Positions 3,021 to 27,600 of a DNA stretch of 60,000 nucleotides are shown piece by piece. Location: assembly GCF_026151205.1 (NCBI RefSeq), contig NC_087074.1, positions 13,065,182-13,125,181 on the forward strand, in the 5' to 3' direction. The position numbers were made by a program, and so were the translations under genes. The notes under the pieces are model-generated. The model was not told the DNA's origin. It ran no database searches and was given only the letters and a program-made list of their open reading frames with translations. Within the stretch, counting starts at the first letter, position 1. Every line of letters starts with the position of its first letter. This stretch comes from Bolinopsis microptera. Taxonomy: Eukaryota; Ctenophora; Tentaculata; Lobata; Bolinopsidae.

Positions 3021-6000
3021 GATTGAAATAAATTTTCGTGCACATACAGAATGAATGGTTAATAATTTAATATATATGTAGACCAAGGTCTGTGCACGGG
3101 ATGCTTCCTGGAAGAATCCAGTTCTTTTAGCGGGGCACCCTACCTAAAGCCAAATTGAGATATAATAATCATATTCCTAGAGAAATAATCAGAAATCGAA
3201 TACCAATCAAATAATATGATATATAGGAGTAGTAACCATATTTACTATGCAAAATGCCCCAACCACATAGTGTAAATTTATATAGAATTCAAATTCCATA
3301 TCATCATTAAACCTCAATAGTCAATATAATAGCCCAAGCAAAATTAAATAACTTCTTATATACCTTACTGTCATACTACAAATTAATTAAACATTTGAAA
3401 TCTGTTAACCAGAGAATAAATTTCTAAACCTAATGCAAGTGAAATAATTTAGATGCAATAATGAATGCCTAATGTGAGTATCATCTGTCAATGTCCTTGT
3501 AAAAAAGTCTGTAAAAGAGATATGAGTAACTAATATAGAAGAAAAAAACAGGAAGTTGTCGTCTGTTGAAAAATAAATAAAATATCTAGAATATAAATTA
3601 GAATATAAAATAACATTCAGTCAATGTGTCGTCAATAAACTGTACAATTATCAAATGTTAAAACTGGGTGATACAGTCACCAAAAATAAATACTAAGTAT
3701 AATAAGTAAATAAATTAAATGTGGTCTATAAAACTACCACTAGGTATAATAGGTCAATAAATTAAAAGTGGTTTATAAAACTACCACTGTGCGAACCCTT
3801 TCTCCAGTTAAAACATGTCAGTCATGTGCAAAATCAATCAAAATGGTAAGGTGGTAAAAAAGGGAAAATTCTTTCGATACATCAATTATATATGCCTCAG
3901 ATTTAAAAGAATTAGAAGATACTTAGTTATCGTCGACTATGATTGCAGTGTAAAATTTGTCATATGAATTGTCGACGGTATAATTAGGGTCTGTTGTTAT
4001 AGATGAGAGTAGCTGTTTCTTATACGAATCAAGTTAAAGCTTTTAACATCGGGCAGATTTCGTAGATCTGTTGGAACATTATTCCAACATTTTGCCCCCA
4101 AGTATTGAAAGTTTTTATGTGATGTTGATCTATTAACATATAGGTTGCAGCTTTCGCCGCTCCTACTACCTCCTGATATGTAACTAAATTTGTTCATAAA
4201 GTTTGTAGGACAATTGTCATGGATGATTCTAAACATATAATTTGACAGATGGAGTTGCCGTCTAAGATGGAGTGGTAACCATTTCATGTCTCTATAAACA
4301 TTAAGGCTGCTCTCTGTTTGTGGAACGTTGAGAGCTATTTTGGCTACCTTTTTGTACAGAGTGTCAAGTGCAGCAAGTTTTGTCTTGCCAGCTCTACAAT
4401 AGATCGTGTCTAAATAATCGAATTGTGGCAACATGAGTGCATTGGCAAACATTTTCCTATATTTAATGGGTAGCAGTGCTTTACTTCTATACATGGCACC
4501 AATTCTCTTCATGACCTTCTTAATAATATAATCTACATGGCTTTTGAAGTTTAATTTACTATCTAGAATGAGGCCAAGATATTTTGTCTCTTTGCACTCC
4601 TTGATTGTGAAAGTTACCTCATTACATTCAATGGTTAATTCATCATGTTGATCAACAGAATCAAACAATAGGAATTCAGTCTTCTTTTCATTGAGTGATA
4701 ATTTATTTACACTGAGCCATTTAAAGATTGTCATAAGTTCTATTTTCATGTTTATAAATGTGCTTCTGCAGGTTTGATCAAAGAATAGTGCACCATCATC
4801 TGCAAATAGAAAGGGCTTAGATAGGTTACAGGCATAAATGATGTCATTTATGAAGATACTAAATAATATAGGCCCAATGATGCTTCCTTGTGGTACACCA
4901 CTCAGAACTTCTAAAAATGAACTTAGTTTGCCATTGATCCTAGTGCATTGATATCTACAAGATAAGAAGTTCTTAAACCAGGTTAAAGCAATGCCACCAA
5001 TTCCATAATATGCCAATTTTTGAAGCAATATTTCATGATTCACTGTGTCAAAGGCCTTCTTAAGATCAAGAAAGATGATTCCTGGTTTATAAGACTTAGA
5101 TTTACTCATATATATTTCGTCCATCAGATCGTACATCAAATAAGTTGTGGAGTGATTTTTCCGAAAGCCATATTGATGCCGGATGAAAAGTTTGTTCTCC
5201 TCCATGTAATCAGTGAGTTGCTTGCCGACAAAGTATTCTATAAGTTTTCCTACAAGTGGAAGGATGGATATTGGCCTGTAATTATTAGGATCATCTTTCA
5301 TTCCTGCCTTATGGATGGATACTAATTTATAAAGATACCTTGCAGTATTTCTTTGAGGTCTAAAGCCTTCTTGCTCTTCGTCGAGTAAGCCCTCTAGTTC
5401 GCAATGGAGCTTTATTCTTCGTTCCAAGATCTTTTCTAGCAGCTTTCCAACATATGATGATATCGATATTGGTCTATAAGCAGAGGGGTTCATGTAGTTA
5501 TCCTTCCCATCCTTTTTGATGAAAGTGACATTGGATACCTCCCAGACCCATACACCAGTCTCAAGGACAAGGTCATATAGTTTTGTTAGAATCCGAAGAG
5601 CTGACACAGGCAGATGTTTCAGGATTTTTGGGTGAAGATTATCAGTGTCAAAACTTTTGGCATTGCTATTTTGAGCCTTCAGTGCTAAAGTAACTTCCTC
5701 TAGACCTATTTTCCCATTCAGATGATCATTAATGATGTGATCTAATTGGTCGGTAGGGAACTGAGTCGATATAATGTTATTGATTTCTTGTTCGAAGACA
5801 TGATCAAAACTGCATCCATTCATGTGTTCACCCGAGAAGAATGATTTGTACAAGATGTTTTCTTTCTGAGTTCTGTCAGAGTGGAGGATACCACCATCCA
5901 TAAGATTTCCCATGTACTCGTTAGGCTTATTGGTCAATGTCTTCTTATAATTTTTCCAGAATATTTGAGACTGAGCAACATTGAGATTTTCCAGTTGCTG

Positions 6001-6246
6001 ATGAATCCATTTGTTTTTTTCGGATATCAAGGTATTAGAAAACTCCTCCTTTGCTTGTTTGTGGAGGGAGACGTTATATGGTGTGTAGCTGGTTTTCATG
6101 GTTTCCTGCGCAGCTTGAAGAGTTCGTGAAAGGTCTGTAAGGAGAGAGTTCCAGAAAGGTTTTGAGTGGGTACTGACTTTCTTGAGAGGAATCCATTCAT
6201 TACCAATCGCAGATGTTTGTTGTTTAGTTGTGTTGGAAGGGAACAT
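3021..6246 (-). mobile_element. LINE family B, copy 1 (chimeric 5' part)
   Basis: Bases 3021-5312 match 43653-45946 almost base for base, including a 3' untranslated region of nearly 1 kb (3021-3996). That pair defines family B and its 3' terminus. On the minus strand the element ends in TTTCAATC followed by other DNA, the short-repeat type of 3' end seen in CR1-like LINEs. The part from 5313 to 6246 has no counterpart in the second copy and encodes a different reverse transcriptase segment. Confidence 0.85.
3997..6246 (-). CDS. Chimeric LINE reverse transcriptase ORF (two RT entry domains in frame)
   Basis: This is a 749-codon frame. Residues 1-308 look like the pre-RT and finger region of one LINE lineage: a YRPIS motif at 257-261 and a QEGFRPQRNTA motif near 292. 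From about residue 310 a second, complete RT starts again with NNYRPISILP (322-330), then QYGFRKNHST, FLDLKKAFDTVNH, GVPQGSIIGPILF, the catalytic FADD at 481-484, and a thumb region. So the first RT is cut after motif 2 and fused in frame to another RT. No endonuclease is present. Compared with the copy at 44559-45946, the C-terminus is altered by a small indel near 4030 that changes the last ~30 residues. It is probably not functional as two enzymes, although the second RT domain is intact. Confidence 0.85.
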   Translation of the reverse strand: MFPSNTTKQQTSAIGNEWIPLKKVSTHSKPFWNSLLTDLSRTLQAAQETMKTSYTPYNVSLHKQAKEEFSNTLISEKNKWIHQQLENLNVAQSQIFWKNYKKTLTNKPNEYMGNLMDGGILHSDRTQKENILYKSFFSGEHMNGCSFDHVFEQEINNIISTQFPTDQLDHIINDHLNGKIGLEEVTLALKAQNSNAKSFDTDNLHPKILKHLPVSALRILTKLYDLVLETGVWVWEVSNVTFIKKDGKDNYMNPSAYRPISISSYVGKLLEKILERRIKLHCELEGLLDEEQEGFRPQRNTARYLYKLVSIHKAGMKDDPNNYRPISILPLVGKLIEYFVGKQLTDYMEENKLFIRHQYGFRKNHSTTYLMYDLMDEIYMSKSKSYKPGIIFLDLKKAFDTVNHEILLQKLAYYGIGGIALTWFKNFLSCRYQCTRINGKLSSFLEVLSGVPQGSIIGPILFSIFINDIIYACNLSKPFLFADDGALFFDQTCRSTFINMKIELMTIFKWLSVNKLSLNEKKTEFLLFDSVDQHDELTIECNEVTFTIKECKETKYLGLILDSKLNFKSHVDYIIKKVMKRIGAMYRSKALLPIKYRKMFANALMLPQFDYLDTIYCRAGKTKLAALDTLYKKVAKIALNVPQTESSLNVYRDMKWLPLHLRRQLHLSNYMFRIIHDNCPTNFMNKFSYISGGSRSGESCNLYVNRSTSHKNFQYLGAKCWNNVPTDLRNLPDVKSFNLIRIRNSYSHL

Positions 6247-6960
6247 TACTTGATTAATTCATCCATTCGGATTTTAATAACGATGAGCTATGATATACCG
6301 TTCATCTTAGACTATTGGATCAATCTTATTATATGATTAGATTTTATAAACGAACTTGGCACACAAAAGATTATAATGCGGAGGTTGGCTGGCTCTTCTA
6401 TAATAAATACGACACTTCAATTTACAGAATGCTCGCTAGAGACAAGACAAAATATTATCAGACTATACATGCAGCATGAGTAACTGGTGGATAAGCCTTC
6501 GGTAAAAACGGATCCGGAAAAGTCAATGCGGCACTCGGTCCTTGGTATTGTCGTCGGTATATTGTCCATTATCTACGTTCTGCTTTCGTAGTTTAAACAA
6601 TAGTGAGTTCTAAATATACAGCTTTAAACCGATTAAGTATGAATGAATGAAATACCTGACAATCCGCACTCTTATAATCCAAAAGCATGAGTAACTCGTA
6701 GTGATGTATGATTTCTAGAAACTTTAAATTAATTTTGGCGCTCACAGGTCCTCGTGAATATGTGATCGCCGCATAAGGTTCTGTAAATGCGCAGGGCACC
6801 TTCAAGCTTAAATTATTCACCTTACTGAGGCAGTCAACCAACGCGCGGCTTTATTTTTATGATATGATATGTTTTGATTGTTATTAATAAATACCAAAAT
6901 TTAAATTTGTTTTCCTAAAATTTATTTTCCTAACAAAAATTAATCACATGGGAAATTAGA
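6247..6960. other. No gene recognised
   Basis: AT-rich sequence with no supported coding region, RNA gene or clear repeat. The 5' boundary of the chimeric LINE lies somewhere near 6246-6480, but no target site duplication could be identified. Confidence 0.5.
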
Positions 6961-10715: not shown

Positions 10716-11123
10716 AAAATAAATTCAGTTTTTCTCAACGTTAATTTGAGTCCAAAATTAACAAATCTGTGAACATTTTCCTAAAACATTTTGACGAAGT
10801 CATTGAACAATGGAGACTGGAGTCAATCTATATTTAACATAATCATGGGTGTACGAATTATGGACTTCTTTCTGACTTATGACTTAATTATTGTGACTAA
10901 GTGTCACGGCTCACGGTCTTGTGTTACCGAGGGACAAGTAAAACAGAGTTCTCCGGGTAAAGAAAGCATTAATAAATGCTATTCAGTATTCATCCTATTC
11001 AATTATTCAGGTAAGGTGATGTAAACTGTAAAGTGATAAGCTCCAACGTCAAACACCATGTTCAATTAAATAAGTTTAAGTAACCAATACCAGATCACAG
11101 GATTGTTATAGTTACGGAGACTG

Positions 11124-11516
11124 TTGGAAACGATGCAAACCAGGATCGGACTCCTATCAGAAATAGTCGACCACCGGTCCAGCCTCCCTCAAACTCAAAT
11201 GCCCTACCACTACCCCAGACCACATCCACCTCTTCAGCCAGGAACAGCGCTCCCACTATACCACTACCAGCAGTTCCTACCGCCTCAGAGGATACACTGC
11301 ACGTGCCCGTTATTCCTCATGCCTCGTCTTAAATGTCCAGTCCATGAATCCTGTGCATCAAGTGCGAGTATATGGGAAGTGCCAAAAATCTCAGCTCTTA
11401 TTCAGGAGAAATCCAAAAACCACTCGTTACCGTTTATTGCACTAATTACGGAAACGTGGCTCAAGTCCTACATGTCAGACAAATACAAAATGTGCATCAC
11501 CTCTTTCTCCTGCTGA
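11124..11516 (+). pseudogene. LINE ORF2 5' fragment (endonuclease start), copy 1
   Basis: The frame ends in a stretch resembling the start of a LINE AP endonuclease (FIALITETWLKSYMSDKY, where TETWL is the usual first catalytic block). It stops after about 130 codons with no further endonuclease blocks. The sequence from 11252 on is duplicated at 12498. Copy 1 carries a three-base insertion inside the otherwise conserved IALTETWL. It is a 5' remnant of a retroelement, not a host gene. Confidence 0.55.
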
Positions 11517-11917
11517 GCAGAACCTCCCCCTTAAAAGTAAACAAATCTGCATCGCCTCCCAACGACAATCCAGATATATTAAGCAGCAGAGACAATCATT
11601 TAAGGAGACTTCGATATCTATCAGGATCATGATTATACTGCCTGAGAACTCAGCACTTCAGGATGAAACATATAATATTTGGTTTTCTCGATTTCATTCA
11701 TATTTAGACAGAAGTCCGTGTAGATAATTGGTTATAGAATAATTGGATATAATTTCATGCGAAGTTGTGTCTGCGAAAATATACGTGTGAACTGGTCATC
11801 CCGCAAATGCTGAAAAAGTAGATGTTACCTATCATAAAATAACCGCTCGCACCGTACAGTGTACACGACAGAGTTGTGACTGCGTTTACAAATTCTTTAT
11901 CATATTGATGTGTTGCC

Positions 11918-12034
11918 ATGGCAACCGAAACTCCATCGGAAGATCGGCCTGTAAGGCATAATCATGATAATACACAGTATCAAAACATTGCCATTGATAT
12001 CATAGCAACATTCCAGAGATTAGATTATGTGTGT
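11918..12034 (+). CDS. Candidate first coding exon, copy 1 (unknown protein)
   Basis: An ATG in a good context (GCCATGG) opens a frame starting MATETPSEDRPVRHNHDNTQ and running about 38 codons to a GTAAGA splice-donor-like site. The same exon occurs at 15751-15865 in the second unit. Here a two-base gain in a GT run just before the donor changes the phase. I do not recognise the protein and no downstream exon was found, so this may be a captured gene fragment or chance. Confidence 0.25.
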
Positions 12035-12168
12035 GTAAGAAAATGTATGTTATAGTATTATACAGTCTGCTAGAACATTCCGTTTACACATGGTGGCCGA
12101 TAACAACTTGTTTAATTTATCTCCGAATTACACACAAATTTCTGAAAGTTTCGTAGACTTAAATCAAT

Positions 12169-12378
12169 TACAGAGGGTGTGGCTATTGGCCAGCCCCTCT
12201 ATTTCACTATTATGGTTGAAACTATAAGAATACAGATTATATTGTTACAGTGATTTTACAAAAGTCGAAACAGTAAACACCAATTTGTAGGATACTTTAA
12301 ATCACACCAAAATTGGTCCCAGAATGCAATGAAATCTGATGGCGTCTTTTCAGTGAAAAAGAGGCCACACTCTCTGTA
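12169..12378. mobile_element. MITE with TACAGAGGGTGTGGC inverted ends, copy 1
   Basis: The 210-bp segment begins TACAGAGGGTGTGGC and ends with the near reverse complement GCCACACTCTCTGTA. A TA-type boundary would fit a Tc1/mariner-related MITE. It is present at the same position in both duplication units, so it inserted before the duplication. Confidence 0.65.
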
Positions 12379-12432
12379 ATTTATTAAAGTTTACGAGACC
12401 TTTAGAAAATGAGTTATATAACTTGCAACTTA

Positions 12433-12474
12433 AACTAAGATAAATTGAGTATTTATACTCAATTTATCTTAGTT
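12433..12474. repeat. Perfect 20-bp stem hairpin, copy 1
   Basis: AACTAAGATAAATTGAGTAT, two bases, then its exact reverse complement. Repeated unchanged at 16264-16305. Confidence 0.9.
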
Positions 12475-12564
12475 GCATGAGTAATATATATATACTACCC
12501 ACTATACCACTACCAGCAGTTCCTACCGCCTCAGAGGATACACTGCACGTGCCCGTTATTCCTC

Positions 12565-12759
12565 ATGCCTCGTCTTAAATGTCCAGTCCATGAATCCTGT
12601 GCATCAAGTGCGAGTATATGGGAAGTGCCAAAAATCTCAGCTCTTATTCAGGAGAAATCCAAAAACCACTCGTTACCGTTTATTGCACTTACGGAAACGT
12701 GGCTCAAGTCCTACATGTCAGACAAATACAAAATGTGCATCACCTCTTTCTCCTGCTGA
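12565..12759 (+). pseudogene. LINE ORF2 5' fragment (endonuclease start), copy 2
   Basis: 64 codons, the duplicate of 11313-11516. It keeps the uninterrupted endonuclease block FIALTETWLKSYMSDKYK and then stops. Other frames here are shadows. Confidence 0.55.
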
Positions 12760-13079
12760 GCAGAACCTCCCCCTTAAAAGTAAACAAATCTGCATCGCCT
12801 CCCAACGACAATCCAGATATATTAAGCAGCAGAGACAATCATTTAAGGAGACTTCGATATCTATCAGGATCATGATTTTACTGCCTGAGAACTCAGCACT
12901 TCAGGATGAAACATATAATATTTGGTTTTCTCGATTTCATTCATATTTAGACAGAAGTCCGTGTAGATAATTGGTTATAGAATAATTGGATATAATTTTA
13001 TGCGAAGTTGTGTCTGCGAAAATATACGTGTGAACTGGTCATCCCGCAAATGCTGAAAAAGTAGATGTTACCTATCATA

Positions 13080-13087
13080 AAATAACC
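13080..13087 (+). repeat. Target site duplication, left (AAATAACC)
   Basis: AAATAACC flanks the foldback element on both sides (also 15670-15677). It is present once at the corresponding site in the uninterrupted unit (11837-11844). Confidence 0.93.
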
Positions 13088-13475
13088 GGCACTATCCGTC
13101 GCGGAGTCGAGTCCGCGGCGGAGCCGCCGGACTCCGGGCGGACTCCGAGCGGACTCCGGCGGAGCCGCCGGACTCCGAGCGGACTCCGGCGGTGCTCCGC
13201 CAAAATGTATTTACAGTGGACTCGAGTACATTTTGGCGGACTCCAAGCGGCTCCGCGGCGGCTCGGCGGAGTGTCCATGTCCGCCGCGGACTAAGCCACT
13301 AGGCGGACTCCGGCGGAGTGCTTGGCGGACTCCGCCGGACCTCTCCGCCAGACTTGAATCCGGCGGAGTCCGGCGGAGCTTGGCGGAGTCCGCCAGCTCG
13401 GCGGACTCCGCTCGGAGTCCGCCGGACTCCAACAGAGTCCACTGACTTCCGACCTCCGTCTTCCGACCCTCGGCT
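13088..13475. repeat. GC-rich subterminal repeat array, left arm
   Basis: A block of CGGACTCCG, GAGTCCGCC and GGCGGAGCCGCC words repeated in direct and inverted orientation, sharply distinct from the AT-rich flanks. Such arrays are typical of the ends of foldback elements and may bind transposase. Many overlapping open frames arise here because the words lack stop codons. Confidence 0.85.
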
Positions 13476-15239
13476 AAATTTGTCACGTGACATACAACAT
13501 AGCATTTTGCAATATTGTGGTCAGATGAAAAGGTCGCTAGTGATAAATTCCTTAACCATTACCCTCACAATGTCAATAGTGTACAACTCTAGTCCTAACT
13601 TTGACCCTATAATGTATAAACGTTGACCCTAACCCTCCACCAAACCGTCAGCAGCGAAATATCAATGTCATTGACTGGTCACGTGACCAAAACAATTTTT
13701 GTCATATTATCTCATATGGGGAAGCGTTTTTAGCAAGCAAAAATACGTCGACCATCACAGGACGACGCCAGCCAGCACTCTCTACGCTCTTCGAGCTCCG
13801 ATCGTCCTGTGACGAAGTAAGGACGAAGCCTGAGGTCCTCAGGTAACATCGACCACCGATTGAAAATTCAAAGATTTTTTGACATAAAGGTCAAATGTAA
13901 AACTAAAATCTTGATGTTGATTGATTGACGACGTCAATTTTTGAGCACAGCGCGAGCGCATATTGCGGAAAAGGACCGCGTAGCTAGTCAAGATGTTGAT
14001 AAATATTTGGCTTGTGGCGCGATGTGTTGCTCTAACTATAGCCCTCTCGCTTGCAGTAGCGCGCGACCGCCGGAGGCGGAAATGACCTGGTTAGCTAGGT
14101 AAACGCGATGTGCCTTGTAGGATGAAATCCTACTAGCTGACGCGGGACGCCATTCGCAGCTGTGCTGCTCGCTGTACGTCAGCGATCGAAATTTATACGC
14201 GTATCCCCCGTTAAGATGTGCCACTCGAAGCGCCACACAATTTTTTTCGTTGCTCGTCGCACGTCGACGAACAACGAAGCTCGTTGCGACGCGCCGCGCA
14301 ATGAGCTGCCAGGCTAGGACATCGTCCTGGTCCAACAAATTCTGGCGAGCGATTTTCTCCAAAGATTTAATGAGGGCGTCGACGTGCGACGAGCAACGAG
14401 AAAAATTGCGTGGCGCGTCGGGTGGCACATCTTAACGGGTGATACGCGTATAAATTTCGATCGCTGACGTACAGCTAACATCACAGCTGCGAGTGGCGTC
14501 AGCTAGTAGGATTTCATCCTACAATGCAAGGCACATCGCGTTCATTTAGCTAACCAGGTGCTTTCGCGCCGCTGCGGGCGCGCTTGTTCCACAAGTCATT
14601 TCCGGCGGTCGCGCGCTTTTGCAAGCGAGAGGGCTATAGTTAGAGCAACACATCGCGCCACAAGCCAAATATTTATCAACATCTTGACTAGCTACGCGGT
14701 CCTTTTCCGCATGCGCTCGCGCTGTGCTCAAAAATTGACGTCGTCAATCAATCAGCATCAAGATTTTAGTTTTACATTTGACCTTTATGTCAAAAAATCT
14801 TTGAATTTTCAATCGGTGGTCGATGTTACCTGAGGACCTCAGGCTTCGTCCTTACTTCGTCACAGGACGATCGGAGCTCGAAGAGCGTAGAGAGTGCTGG
14901 CTGGCGTCGTCCTGTGATGGTCGACGTATTTTTGCTTGCTGGGATCCGGCCGAATGACGCCACATGCAACGTGTAGGGTAAAACTAAAAACGCTTCCCCA
15001 TATGAGATAATATGACAAAAATTGTTTTGGTCACGTGACCAGTCAATGACATTGATATTTCGCTGCGGACGGTTTGGTGGAGGGTTAGGGTCAACGTTTA
15101 TACATTATAGGGTCAAAGTTAGGACTAGAGTTGTACACTATTGACATTGTGAGGGTAATGGTTAAGGTTTATCACTAGCGACCTTTTCATCTGACCACAA
15201 TATTGCAAAATGCTATGTTGTATGTCACGTGACAAATTT

Positions 15240-15669
15240 AGCCGAGGGTCGGAAGACGGAAGTCAGTGGACTCTGTTGGAGTCCGGCGGACTCCGAGCGG
15301 AGTCCGCCGAGCTGGCGGACTCCGCCAAGCTCCGCCGGACTCCGCCGGATTCAAGTCTGGCGGAGTCCGCCAAGCACTCCGCCGGAGTCCGCGGCGGACC
15401 GGAGTCCGCCTAGTGGCTCAGTCCGCGGCGGACACTCCGCCGAGCAGCCGCGGAGCCGCTCGGAGTCCGCGGCGGACTTTAAAGTCCGCTCGGAGTCCGC
15501 TCGGCTCCGCTCGGAGTCCGCCAAAATGTACTCGAGTCCACTGTAAATACATTTTGGCGGAGCACCGCCGGAGTCCGCTCGGAGTCCGGCGGCTCCGCCG
15601 GAGTCCGCTCGGAGTCCGCTCGAAGTCCGGCGGCTCCGCCGCGGACTCGACTCCGCGACGGATAGTGCC
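15240..15669. repeat. GC-rich subterminal repeat array, right arm
   Basis: The inverted counterpart of 13088-13475, built on the same CGGACTCCG core and slightly longer through unit-number differences. Confidence 0.85.
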
Positions 15670-15677
15670 AAATAACC
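15670..15677 (+). repeat. Target site duplication, right (AAATAACC)
   Basis: Second copy of the 8-bp duplication flanking the foldback element. Sequence after it resumes the duplication unit at GCTCGCACCGTACAG. Confidence 0.93.
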
Positions 15678-15750
15678 GCTCGCACCGTACAGTGTACACG
15701 ACAGAGTTGTGACTGCGTTTACAAATTCTTTATCATATTGATGTGTTGCC

Positions 15751-15865
15751 ATGGCAACCGAAACTCCATCGGAAGATCGGCCTGTAAGGCATAATCATGA
15801 TAATACACAGTATCAAAACATTGCCATTGATATCATAGCAACATTCCAGAGATTAGATTATGTGT
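15751..15865 (+). CDS. Candidate first coding exon, copy 2 (unknown protein)
   Basis: Same candidate exon as at 11918: ATGG context, frame beginning MATETPSEDRPVRHNHDNTQ, ending at a GTAAGA donor-like site. The open frame would continue into the presumed intron to 15987. The foldback element ends only about 80 bp upstream of the ATG, in what would be the 5' leader or promoter. Function unknown; no second exon seen. Confidence 0.25.
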
Positions 15866-15999
15866 GTAAGAAAATGTATGTTATAGTATTATACAGTCTG
15901 CTAGAACATTCCGTTTACACATGGTGGCCGATAACAACTTGTTTAATTTATCTCCGAATTACACACAAATTTCTGAAAGTTTCGTAGACTTAAATCAAT

Positions 16000-16209
16000 T
16001 ACAGAGGGTGTGGCTATTGGCCAGCCCCTCTATTTCACTATTATGGTTGAAACTATAAGAATACAGATTATATTGTTACAGTGATTTTACAAAAGTCGAA
16101 ACAGTAAACACCAATTTGTAGGATACTTTAAATCACACCAAAATTGGTCCCAGAATGCAATGAAATCTGATGGCGTCTTTTCAGTGAAAAAGAGGCCACA
16201 CCCTCTGTA
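16000..16209. mobile_element. MITE with TACAGAGGGTGTGGC inverted ends, copy 2
   Basis: 210 bp with perfect 15-bp inverted ends (TACAGAGGGTGTGGC ... GCCACACCCTCTGTA). It is the duplicate of 12169-12378, where one end has a substitution. Confidence 0.7.
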
Positions 16210-16263
16210 ATTGATTAAAGTTTACGAGACCTTTAGAAAATGAGTTATATAACTTGGAACTTA

Positions 16264-16305
16264 AACTAAGATAAATTGAGTATTTATACTCAATTTATCT
16301 TAGTT
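16264..16305. repeat. Perfect 20-bp stem hairpin, copy 2
   Basis: Identical to 12433-12474: 20-bp arms with a 2-base loop. Confidence 0.9.
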
Positions 16306-16325
16306 GCATGAGTAATATATATATA

Positions 16326-19070
16326 CTCTCATTTTTTAGAGCAAACGTAATTTAAATGGCTAAACACAATTCAATAAAATTTGGCTCGATCCGATTATCC
16401 AAACTATCAAATAAATGCGAAAATGAACCTTCTTTTGAAAACAATGAACACAAATATGTTTCGATTTGACAAATTTCTCGAACCAGTGGTGGTAGTAAGT
16501 CATACCAGAACCAATTATTTCAATTGGGCACTCAGTGACTGAGCTATTAATGCCAACGTTTGCACACTGACTTTTGGCCCACCCTGTATATTTATAATAT
16601 ACGGCTGGAAAAAATGTAACTGGATATCTGCCACAATGCTGCTATTATTAAGGTTAAAGTAACATTTAGCACATAAAGAAGTCTGGTTTGCTAGGTTTTA
16701 ATTGGTCGTATAATAACAAATAAAAATGAGTTAAGACTACAAAAACGGTCGATAGAACCTAATTATAATACCTGTATCGAGAACTCGACTTCAATGCACT
16801 GATAGCGTTGGTACTAACATTCTATCAAATTATGTCATATCTTGAGACTTGATAGCTGCCTGAAACAGTTTTGAGTCAACATTATCGTGATATTCTAGAA
16901 ATTGAAACCAATTCTCAACTTTAAAAAAGCAGGTTTCAATAAATGCCATAGAATTAAATTCTACCTTTTTAAATTTTAAGAATTTGTTGATTTATTAAAA
17001 TTCTGTCTCAATTAATATATAAGGGTACATGCAATGTATTTCGACACGCACTGTAGACTCACTTATTGGATTCGTGCTAGATGCTGTGTACGTCACCCTC
17101 TTAACCACCTCTATGGCGAAGATGAGGATGGTAAGTGCAAGTACAGTAATGTGAGGAGAGGATGGGTATCATTTAGCACATTTTTGCTGTAGGTGTAAAG
17201 TAGCTCTTAGTCAAGGAGTATATAAATGACGGCACGACAAGGTTCTGCAACAGATCTCTCAACATGTTATCTTGTGAGCGCCGAGTGAACACTTATAAGA
17301 ACAAGGCCAGCGATGTAAGACAGTATCATTGACTTAGTCCATGCTGGGAGGAAAAAAGCAAGTACAGACGACCGAAAGGAGTCGTGGTTTGGGATCCTGA
17401 GTGGGTCTCGATATTGGATAGTGCTTTTATATATCGGACCTTATGATATTCTCAAGGTCACCAAGACGGCACAGTCTTATGGCGGGAGGTAACGGTACCA
17501 TCTAAAGAGCAGATTGCTGAATCATACAAGTAAAAACTCTACCGGTACAGCAGTCTTACAGCAGACTGAGATTCAAGCGAAAGAATTGTGCTGTTATAAT
17601 TATGCGGTTAAAGTTCTAGCACCGGGAGTAGTTGTTCACGGTTTGGAGAGAGCTGAGTAGGCTAGTACGGGATAGAAGGGAAGAAGCAGCTCACTGTTCC
17701 AGATGGATCTACTTCTTATCAAGGAAGAAGGAGTGGTAGGTATAGTAAGGAAGATTGGAGCCTAAGAGTTAACTTAACATCTAGAGGTACCACAAACTTT
17801 ATCTCGTCGCCAATTGCGAGCTTTAACGGGTTTCCTCAAGTGACTCGATGGTTTAATTGTGACAAATCATGATACGAACTTTGATGAACCCATAATAGTA
17901 TAGTGCAATAATACTATGATAGTATTCTCATAAGTTCTACCCTTGCAACCGAGTACAATGTACATACTAAGTGATATCAAGCTGCAATCTAAAATTTATT
18001 AATTGAATCTCAAAATAACTTCAAATTTTACCTAATAATTGCGACATCGTTGGAAGTGAGAAATAAAATACATTAAATTTTAATCCAATTCTGCGAGAGA
18101 AGATTTGCCCAGACAGCTGACAAGAATGTATTACCATACTTCCTGTAAATGTGGTAGTTATTAGGTCATATCAAACTTGAAAATTATGTCAAAGTTTTTC
18201 TCAGTCTCTGGTTTCAATCACCAGTAGAGTGCCCAGCCGCACCAAAACAACCTGCGATTTTTACGTGGGAAACATCGTATAATACACATGCTATACACTC
18301 TAGTTTTATAGCAGCTACTGATATCATGCGGCAGTATTAATAAGCATACAAATTCAGCGCAAAAAATTGTAAAGACGACACAAATTCATGCGGGATGTTA
18401 ATAAATGTGTCCATGTTGAACTCAAACTCCGACAGAATAATATTTCAAATCGGATATATTATAATTAATCAAATGGTATCTGCTCATGTTCCGTCTATAT
18501 AAACTACAAAACTTAATAAATTAGTGAAGTTCTGAAACAAAGATCACGACTAGGTTTTATCAAAATTGAAAAGAAAACCGATCGAAGTGCACTAGAGATA
18601 TAGTTTAAGTTTAAAGGGTCATCATTACTAAAATCTCTTCCTAGCTCCTAGCAATCAAGTTGTTAATCCTAGTTCTACACCTAAACAAGTACAAAATTAC
18701 AGCCTTACATTTTGAAATTTTTCGATATCCAGCTCAACATAAGACTTCGATACCAATAATGCATAATGGGTACATACCGATGATCGGTGTTCGTAAATAT
18801 TTGATTATTTATAGTATTGAAGTTTAAAATCTTCCTAATTATGTAAGAATAACAAAAGGAATCACGTACTAGTGTGCTGTTACGAAAAACAACTATTTAA
18901 TAAAAATAAATTAACAGTATTCGAGTACAAAATTAAAAATACAAACTCCAACATAATCGACAGACAAACTCAATAAATGAAGATTTCGTCGTGAAACGAG
19001 CTATATATACAGCTATAACGTAGCGCTCGACTCCAGTCTGAACCAAAATTAAGTCGCGTTCGTAGGAAAT
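16326..19070. other. No gene recognised
   Basis: About 2.7 kb without a supported exon. The stretch 17040-17860 is less AT-rich than its surroundings but has stop codons in all frames that I followed. Confidence 0.5.
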
Positions 19071-24622: not shown

Positions 24623-27600
24623 TCAATGCCGCCGATCGCGTCTAGGAGGAGGAGATCTAGATCTGTCTCTACGAGGGGACCTGTCTCTTCTGGGAGACCT
24701 GCCTCTGTCATCACGTCTTGGAGATCTCCCTCTGTCGTCTCTTCTCGGGGATCTTTCCCTTTCTTCTCTATGCCTCCTCGGAGATCTTTCTCGTTTCCTC
24801 TCTGGAGTCGGGCTCCTTCTCTTACGCTCAGGGGGTCGGACTTCGTCTCCGTTTCTCTTTCTCAGGCGAAACACTTCTTCTCCTTTTAGGCGGAGTTCTG
24901 CTTCTTCTTCTGGGAGGAGGTGAACCGCGTGGTTTGGACACGGGCGGAGACCTGCGTGTCAATATCGGGGATTTTCTGGGTGATTTCCTCATGTTCAGTT
25001 TGGCACGAGGCTCGGAGTAAACATAGTCGGGTAACTCGTCGTCGTCGCTTGAAGCATCCATCAAATCATCGTCTAAAGCACTGACTCGCGGTTCGAGCAG
25101 ATTAGTTTCCTCTAGAACGTACCTGAATGTTCTATATGAGTAAATCAGTAAATGTAGTATGTACATACAAAAACGGCACAAATATAGGCGTCATCTTAAT
25201 TCATGGGTTAGTTTATTCGAGGATGTTTGTAAATGAACTATATGTAATGAAGATGCATCAGCTGCCCAGTGACCAGGTTCCAGTGTATTTCATATCAAAT
25301 CTTCGCCGGAAACAGCATAACTTAACAAGGTATTAAAATTACGGCATTTCCTTAATTATATAGACACGTAAATAAGATATGTCGTGCGCGCACCTTTACA
25401 TATGCTGATTTCCATCGCGTCGCTGCAAAACGTTATAAAATTCACGAGCAATGTGTGACAGAAAATTAAATTGGCAATCATACCTTAGCTGTATCCTAGG
25501 CAATGTCTGACCGATCCACGATTCTTCAGTGAGTAGACTTTCTACATATTCGTCAACATGTGATAGTTCGAAAACACCATTACGATTCTTTACTTTTATC
25601 TGAAGATTGGTTTTCAGTTGGACAGACAGTAGTGTGGCCAGCAGCAGGAGGTGACCGGGATTCCCGGTCCCGGTCCCGGTTAATTCAGGATTCTTGGTCC
25701 CAGTCCCGGTCCCGGTCAATCACTCAAATTTGCCGGGATTTTGACCGGGATCTTTTACATAATTTCATTCACTGTGATTTTAAGTTTTTACTTTCATTCA
25801 TTGTGAATTTCAACTTTAAACCACCTCTGAGCCAAATAAAACAATGTTTAAAATTGCTAAACAAGTTTACTAGTTTAGGTAACTTATATCGTTACATAAC
25901 TCATAAGTGCAAACTAACATCAAGTTTTCAACTCGGGCTACGCCCAATTGTCAATTGGAATTGGAGAATGAAACTGTTGAATAATTTGAGGGATCATTGA
26001 TCGAGGAATGAGGAATGAGGGTGAACTTGAGCAGTGGCGTAACGAAAGGCCCTGCTGACCCCGCTGTGCAGGGGGCGCCGTCTTAGGGGGGCGCCAAATC
26101 GTCGTTTGAATGTGGGACAATTTCGAAAACTTAACTAATGTACTAGCAAAACTGCGCGTTTTGGTCTAGATACACACTTTTTTAGAGATTTTACCGGCGT
26201 ATTCTTTAAAATCACCTAATTTGTTCAATTTTAGGGAGGGCACCAAAAGGGGAGGGGGCGCCAACAGGGGGGCGCTTTTTTCGGCAGGGGGCGCCAACAG
26301 GCAACGTTACGCCACTGAACTTGAGTAATCAGTACATGAACATTATTGGTGTAGTACATTAGGCCCATGCCCCATATTGACGGTTTTTTTTTCAATTATA
26401 ATGTAAATGAAAGTTGCAGCTTTCAATATGAGAATACCAGTTTTGGTCCCGGTCATCCCGGTCATCCCGGTCAAATCCCGGTCATCCCGGTCAAATCCTG
26501 GTCATCCCGGTCAAATCCCGGTCATCCCGGTAAAATTGGATTGTTGGTCCCGGTCCCGGTCCCGGTCCCGGTAAGATAGAAATCCCAGAAATTATTGGTC
26601 CGGTCCCGGTCCCGGTCACGGTAAATTGATAATCTCAGTCCCGGTCCCGGTCCCGGTCCCGGTCAAGTCACATTTTGTATCCCGGTCCCGGTCCCGGTCC
26701 CAGTCAGGCCTAAAATCATGTCCCGGTCACCTCCTGGCCAGCAGCCAGAAGAGTATGTTGAGTTAAGGTAACCAACCGACGTTAAATCATGGTATTCAAG
26801 TTTCTGATAAGGACATAAAATTTTATGATTAGGACATAAAATGTATGATAAGGACATAAAATTCCGGTCATTAAAAGTGAGTCGGTAATAAATATCCCAT
26901 AATGTTTGGTCACTGATTATATAAGGTCGCTTCGAAAATCACTGATCAGATTTAACAATTCTAAATAATTTCAACACAAACCTTTCTGTAGTCATTATAA
27001 AGTGGTTCCAGATAATTATAACAGTCAATAGCAGTCCCAGTTAACCGTAGATAGTAGGCTCCCAAACATCGCACATACCTGCAATACAGCGGGTTATGTT
27101 ATCCATTTGAGTTTTACCGGCATGAAAAACACATTATATTATAGACTTTTTAAATTATTGTACTTGTACTGTACTTATACTGCTCGGACTCCTGGGTAGT
27201 ACAAACTCAGCAGCCACCCGAACGAGCATATAATACCACATAATATGACATATAAAACACATGAACCGGAACATACTTTAATCAAATATTACACAATTTC
27301 ATTCCCTTGGGGATCTAAACTGTTAATTTCATGCCTGATACCAATTTTAACCTCTTTCAAGTTAGAATATTATGCCAAAACCGTTTGGCATATTTAATTT
27401 ATATACACAAATCTTGAATTCCGAACGACCGAACTGGAACACTGGCAAGAAATTCGTTATTATTTCTTTGATCTCAATGCCAAGAGGCACTACGTAAATT
27501 TTGTTCCTACTATTTTTCTGAGAAATTAATTTTACCTTCTTAGAAATTTTTCTCATAATTATAACGTTTTGAGTTAACAATAAAAAAGAGACCACTATTC

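Follow-up and report, generated by a model that had tools for sequence, protein, structure and literature searches.

The window analyzed here, a 60,000-nucleotide stretch of the genome of the comb jelly Bolinopsis microptera, contains a 2,582-bp inverted-repeat element at positions 13088-15669 with AAATAACC on either side (Table 1). Its left flank reads ...CATAAAATAACC and its right flank AAATAACCGCTCG..., the corresponding empty site at 11837-11844 reads ...CATAAAATAACCGCTCG..., and the target duplication of this copy is exactly 8 bp long. The element consists almost entirely of one inverted repeat with the long, internally repetitive arms that define foldback anatomy. These arms reach inward to 14146-14269 and 14377-14500, so that a 107-nt loop remains, and they are 93-100% complementary in the seven biggest segments and 79-97% in the lesser ones, with numerous small gaps. 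The outer ~350 bp of both arms is GC-rich and composed of short repeat units, for which TRF reports a period of 11 at 13128-13189, 15483-15521 and 15565-15629 and nowhere else in the window. Both ends of the element read GGCACTATCC and thus start with the GG that is characteristic of Merlin terminal inverted repeats. At each end, the terminal 150 nt give a better self-fold than any of 200 shuffled versions (z scores of -7.0 and -6.6), and an Rfam search of the window matched nothing. The initial annotation had proposed a complete foldback DNA transposon with exact boundaries and an 8-bp target duplication, and this identification is confirmed, with the same end points found in other copies.

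Table 1. Window coordinates of the foldback element, its parts and the repeat units in which it lies.
Feature	Position	Strand	Basis
Uninterrupted first unit of dispersed dimer repeat	11251..12496	+	unit alignment; genome search
Empty site, AAATAACC once, in uninterrupted neighbouring unit	11837..11844		sequence; alignment of the two units
Interrupted second unit, first half	12497..13087	+	unit alignment; genome search
Left target duplication copy AAATAACC	13080..13087		read in sequence, rechecked with family flanks
Complete foldback element, 2,582 bp, without transposase gene	13088..15669		longest ORF inside 142 aa; tblastn with Merlin proteins: no match
Left terminal sequence GGCACTATCCGTCGCGGAGT	13088..13107	+	197 exact genome occurrences; reversed control 0
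Left inverted-repeat arm, ~1.18 kb	13088..14269	+	segments I1-I7, 93-100% complementary; gapped alignment
Subterminal GC-rich array, periods 11 (unit CGGACTCCGGG) and 41	13116..13192	+	repeat listing; putative transposase-binding array
Left arm second GC-rich array	13359..13430	+	TRF periods 10 and 18
Loop of 107 nt separating the arms	14270..14376		inverted-repeat pair I4
Right inverted-repeat arm	14377..15669	-	inverted-repeat segments; gapped alignment
Right arm second GC-rich array	15297..15347	-	TRF period 18
Matching right-end subterminal array, periods 11 and 41	15565..15641	-	repeat listing
Right terminal sequence, same 20 bases on opposite strand	15650..15669	-	sequence and exact genome search
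Right target duplication copy AAATAACC	15670..15677		read in sequence, rechecked with family flanks
Interrupted second unit, second half	15670..16326	+	unit alignment

The insertion lies in one unit of a dispersed repeat

The uninterrupted unit at 11251-12496 and the interrupted unit at 12497-13087 plus 15670-16326 align in two segments, of 594 and 660 positions, at 99.2% identity, with a total of five mismatches and two gap openings. The pair had been taken for a local tandem duplication, a reading that did not hold, as the dimer sits within a dispersed repeat: the 1.24-kb unit has at least 57 full-length matches at 98-100% identity, including the first unit of the window, a count that rests on 40 scored out of 309 candidate places. 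At least 56 of these full-length units lie elsewhere and, in the same 40 scored places, are uninterrupted, each representing an empty site. A full-length head-to-tail neighbour accompanies 41 of the 57 units, and these 41 form 20 groups with two or three members each. At the three other loci read, the left flank matches that of the window dimer (99.6-100% over 261 bp), and the right flank, compared by eye, agrees at two of the three and differs at the third. Since the unit is dispersed and often dimeric, the foldback element entered one unit of an existing dimer; insertion into an already existing repeated unit, as first proposed, is borne out by both the empty site in the window and the other uninterrupted units. 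The concern that the unit at 11.8 kb might be an assembly artefact is judged unlikely to apply, because the unit and the dimer recur at many places in the genome, with the unit uninterrupted at at least 56 of them.

Within the dispersed repeat at 11251-16326, head-to-tail 1.24-kb units are a feature of the family, often as two and once as three full-length units, and a perfect AT-rich hairpin lies near the end of each. An ORF fragment at 11112-11516, for which there was no Pfam match, resembles the start of a LINE endonuclease.

A family of near-identical copies

Across the 264.65 Mb and 232 contigs of the genome searched, the exact 20-bp end occurs 197 times (100 forward, 97 reverse), and its reversed control does not occur. 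We sampled 36 facing pairs of exact ends lying no more than 11.3 kb apart, the window copy included, drawn from 100 of the 197 end places, which run from C1 partway into C7. More widely spaced pairs, unpaired ends and copies whose ends have changed fall outside this sample, which is therefore biased toward young, intact copies. The 36 copies range from 1,615 to 11,264 bp. Copies elsewhere with different end points had been named as grounds for doubt, and the other copies share the same end points. The additional 8-bp duplications that the initial annotation had suggested looking for are likewise present and differ in sequence between copies: 27 of the 36 end-pairs have a perfect duplication, two have one with a single mismatch and seven have none, whereas cross-pairings of the flanks, used as a control, match in 0 of 1,260 cases. 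No end-pair tested matches over more than 8 bp. The duplications are AT-rich and have no fixed motif, with A at position 2 in 19 of the 27. The seven end-pairs without matching 8-bp flanks (L006, L014, L015, L024, L030, L033 and L038) may be products of recombination between copies; no reciprocal partner for them was found among the 36 sampled copies.

Median arm divergence, calculated from arm segments of at least 290 bp (54 segments from 33 of the 36 copies), is 0.7% for the 21 pairs within a copy and 1.4% for the 1,410 pairs from different copies. Such low divergence suggests recent activity of this family of roughly 100 copies. The spacing of the outer repeats also recurs: among 76 distinct 400-bp foldback termini, which are related sequences and not independent cases, the strongest of lags 5-30 is 11 in 64 termini, 10 in eight and 30 in four.

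Some Merlin ends of the same genome resemble the foldback ends

Merlin transposons carry 5'-GG ends and 8-9-bp target duplications; the first-described ends span 24-462 bp, some copies contain internal tandem repeats, and matches are on record for three other comb jellies (PMC8101967). The foldback duplications, perfect at 8 bp in 27 of 36 pairs, fall within that range. PF12762, the Merlin domain, has 58 matches in the genome, and Pfam confirms three of the ORFs (E values of 1.6e-15 to 5.8e-13). Intact Merlin transposase frames of 318, 337 and 320 aa are present. We read eight Merlin places, extended three of them and added parts of two second copies; elements among them have ends starting GGCA or GGTA and 8-bp duplications, and one clade has arrays with an 11-bp period. 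Merlin L061 has ends GGCAGTATCG and the 8-bp duplication GAGCACAG, L062 has ends GGCAGTTTAC/GGCAGTCTCC and duplication GAATATCC, and L057 has ends GGTAACTCGG and duplication ACTTAATT, such ends occurring with 8 bp in two copies. The second copies of families F and C have GCTTACTG and ATAGTATA, respectively, in their flanks; in family F the ends GGCAACTTGT are accompanied by an 8-bp duplication in the second copy and by none in the first. Family D showed one end only, GGCAACTTGG, family E has apparent ends GGTCAAAGAC without a duplication, and no ends were recognized at the two Merlin places A and I (L056 and L063). As a separate feature of these elements, a second ORF lies beside the transposase at several places, diverging from it in L057 and L060, converging in L061, running in the same direction in L056 and L062 and fused in L063.

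The likeness to the foldback family is divided among these elements. In a count of the first 10 bases that leaves out family E and the ends known from isolated flank pieces, the foldback end shares eight bases with Merlin B (L061) and seven and eight with the left and right ends of Merlin H (L062), compared with three, five and five for Merlins C, F and D and with four, one, two and three for four Mutator ends. In a simple binomial with equal bases, agreement at 8 or more of 10 positions would be expected by chance in about 4 of 10,000 comparisons. Arrays with period 11 occur at Merlin places C, D, E, F and I, with 21-57 units in the main ones, while those of A, B and H have periods of 14-15. 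Among 16 further Merlin-flank pieces, taken from 50 previously unread places, six show period 11 (L082, L084, L085, L086, L088 and, by TRF alone, L090); the other ten show no 11-bp array, some being fragments or pieces that may miss the end. The closest Merlin ends, B and H, thus carry 14-15-bp arrays, whereas Merlins with 11-bp arrays share just 3-5 of 10 end bases, so that end and array point to different Merlin clades. The array unit sequence is common to no Merlin family seen. Foldback copies match parts of Merlin loci at the DNA level; in B, C and E the matching stretches fall beyond the limits of the Merlin element itself.

The earlier statement that the ends match no known superfamily is weakened by these comparisons, as the GGCAC start fits the published Merlin signature and resembles some Merlin ends of the same genome. 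The foldback element shares with Merlin the 5'-GG ends (GGCA), the 8-bp duplications and the 11-bp period of one clade in the same genome, but differs in having no DDE_Tnp_IS1595 gene and in arms of ~1.2 kb that fill nearly the whole element, as against ends of 24-462 bp. None of the 36 copies encodes the DDE_Tnp_IS1595 transposase, which a non-autonomous element would lack, and because this defining gene is absent from them we call the element Merlin-like rather than a proven member.

Search for a coding copy

An ORF scan of the 36 copies revealed no transposase gene of their own. The longest ORF per copy is 111-211 aa, the lower bound being the shorter of two frames given for one copy, and mostly falls within the GC-rich arrays; the one exception is a frame of 1,267 aa. 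A tblastn search of the 36 copies with Merlin proteins gave a single hit, with an E value of 0.64 and inside nested DNA, and thus no recognizable remnant. When the 58 Merlin places were compared by eye with 195 of the 197 exact foldback ends, no Merlin gene lay within 12 kb of such an end and the nearest was ~12.6 kb away, on C8. The initial annotation envisaged a full-length relative that shares the 20-bp ends and has a transposase; none was found in this comparison, which a relative with altered ends could have escaped.

Several long copies were considered as coding forms and rejected. Copy L028/L029, 11.3 kb long, contains the 1,267-aa frame, but this frame belongs to a separate transposon nested in the foldback arm: homology of that element to three other copies ends at the arm junction (L028 ~1050), and it is bounded by termini of its own, CCCAGGAAA, with 2-bp duplications (AT in L028, GA at C11). 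No foldback arm was seen in the 1.2-1.4 kb of outer flank at its copies on C11, C7 and C9; the outermost bases of the left end are missing from the C7 copy, and the C9 read does not extend to the right end. Copies L026 and L040 were likewise dismissed as autonomous forms, their extra DNA being unmatched in other copies and interrupting the arm or core, with no frame above 150 aa except in arm DNA. Finally, 12-16 kb separate the left end from the core at C1:6793943, C1:6960659 and C5:5938664. The two C1 places have in common, at the same position and 99% alike, a 43-bp stretch of flank and ~2 kb of internal sequence, and look like one insertion that was duplicated; the frames further inside we take to be retroelement-like. 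No transposase was recognized by eye in the 3-kb pieces read from the three places, whose middles lie outside those pieces.

The nested transposon is 7.94 kb long (L028 1050-8987, equal to C4:16219500-16227437), with other copies at C11:12729909, C7:16756047 and C9:8858710; three copies are open, with an identity of 100% as rounded. Neither a Pfam match above cut-off nor a PDB sequence match was obtained for its uninterrupted 1,267-aa frame. Relatives with 28-36% identity occur at C12:5052250 (1,365 aa), C5:22254295 and C10:6186230 and, where scanned, have no Pfam match above cut-off either. The element may represent an undescribed transposon superfamily.

Proposed mode of transposition and alternatives

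Discrete ends, 8-bp duplications, empty sites and many near-identical copies are directly observed in this family, as is the lack of an own transposase in the copies examined. We consider it probable that these copies form a recent family of about 100 non-autonomous cut-and-paste foldback elements moved in trans by a Merlin (IS1595/IS1016-like DDE) transposase. Given the likeness of the ends and of the array period, such a transposase may recognize the foldback ends. It would bind the GGCAC end together with the adjoining array, whose 11-bp period, close to one helical turn, would present the binding sites on one side of the DNA. Having paired both ends, the transposase would excise the element at GG and insert it at a target site whose strands are cut eight bases apart; gap repair would then produce the 8-bp duplication that is seen. 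The long arms probably arose through internal loss of coding DNA and inward copying of one end. The window copy inserted into one unit of the pre-existing dispersed dimer repeat.

The main competing reading, which we consider unlikely, is a non-autonomous Mutator-type foldback that depends on a MULE transposase, the proposal made for the majority of foldbacks described so far. FB of Drosophila and Tm1 are foldbacks with long, internally repetitive inverted arms and little or no coding DNA. The anatomy of these Mutator-group elements, and of Tetris, is like that found here. Most published foldbacks are assigned to Mutator, and Tetris duplications measure 8-10 bp (PMC4079207). The present family differs in its duplication of exactly 8 bp and in ends and array period unlike those of the Mutators read. 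MULE-domain matches number 88 in this genome. We read four of these places in full, representing three families, and two of the four were without recognizable ends. The other two, L073 (C12:4735000) and L074 (C3:14093800), are Mutator elements whose ends adjoin tandem arrays of periods 17 and 15, respectively; subterminal arrays in this genome are therefore not confined to a single superfamily. Because L073 is also compatible with an 8-bp duplication and has the GG end GGTAACACGA, duplication length and GG alone do not decide the matter. Against the Mutator reading, the foldback end has 1-4 of 10 bases in common with the Mutator ends that were read. The outermost bases of these Mutator elements are unequal between the two ends, their arrays have periods of 15 and 17, and L074 fits a 9-bp duplication, whereas no tested foldback end-pair matches beyond 8 bp; on the four of 88 places read, with ends recognized in two, the foldback ends are not like those of the same-genome Mutators. 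On C7, a foldback end and a MULE gene are ~3 kb apart (C7:10589183 and C7:10586219), the one case among the 88 matches within 11 kb of an exact foldback end when compared by eye. This MULE starts ~15 bp past the break of the foldback arm, and because the same start boundary recurs in the MULE copies L071 and L072 it reads as nested, on the one junction read. Comparison of the 88 matches with the exact ends thus revealed no autonomous relative with a MULE transposase.

Three further readings fall below this one. The initial annotation had suggested that an undescribed transposase superfamily moves the family, in which case the Merlin likeness would reflect convergence on GG ends and an 8-base stagger, and the coding partner would be lost or unrecognized. 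Neither the Merlin places compared with 195 of the 197 exact ends nor the ORFs of the 36 copies yielded a coding copy with these ends, and the genome does hold at least one transposon whose 1,267-aa frame is unmatched both in Pfam, above cut-off, and by sequence in the PDB. That element, however, ends differently (CCCAGGAAA), makes 2-bp duplications and is present in one foldback copy only as a nested insertion, and the foldback ends, duplication length and array period are each matched among Merlins of the same genome, though not within one family; we regard an undescribed lineage as improbable. The P and hAT superfamilies both make 7-8-bp duplications, in keeping with the 8-bp duplications of the foldback family, and their usual ends are CA-type in P and CAGNG-type in hAT. 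Such ends are absent here, where the foldback ends begin with GG, which makes an origin as a P-superfamily foldback like Galileo or as a hAT-derived element more doubtful still. Sea urchin TU elements are also foldbacks, with tandem repeats in the outer arms and 8-bp duplications. Galileo of Drosophila, assigned to the P superfamily (PMC4079207), resembles the present family in its long foldback-like ends, whose tandem internal repeats can hold many transposase-binding sites (PMC3688188), and differs in that the foldback here starts with GG and has no transposase-length ORF of its own in 36 copies. It is scarcely credible, lastly, that the palindrome is not mobile and arose by assembly or rearrangement: seven of the 36 end-pairs lack a target duplication, and giant inverted repeats are a known type of assembly artefact, but 197 exact ends, 27 perfect duplications among the 36 and at least 56 uninterrupted target-repeat units contradict this reading.

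The literature searched, which has Repbase and most subscription journals outside it, yielded no report of a Merlin foldback. If the family is tied to Merlin transposase, foldback anatomy arose in a third transposase group beside Mutator and P, and arrays at one-helical-turn spacing beside the ends may be a shared solution to transposase binding. The near-identical copies of this genome are numerous, and the presence of intact Merlin frames and several dozen empty sites beside them makes the binding model directly testable.

Other features of the window

Elsewhere in the window, dense arrays with units TCCCGGTCA / GGTCCC occupy 26447-26728. A 753-aa open frame on the minus strand at 3997-6258 contains the motif FADDGALF and is presumably a non-LTR reverse transcriptase.
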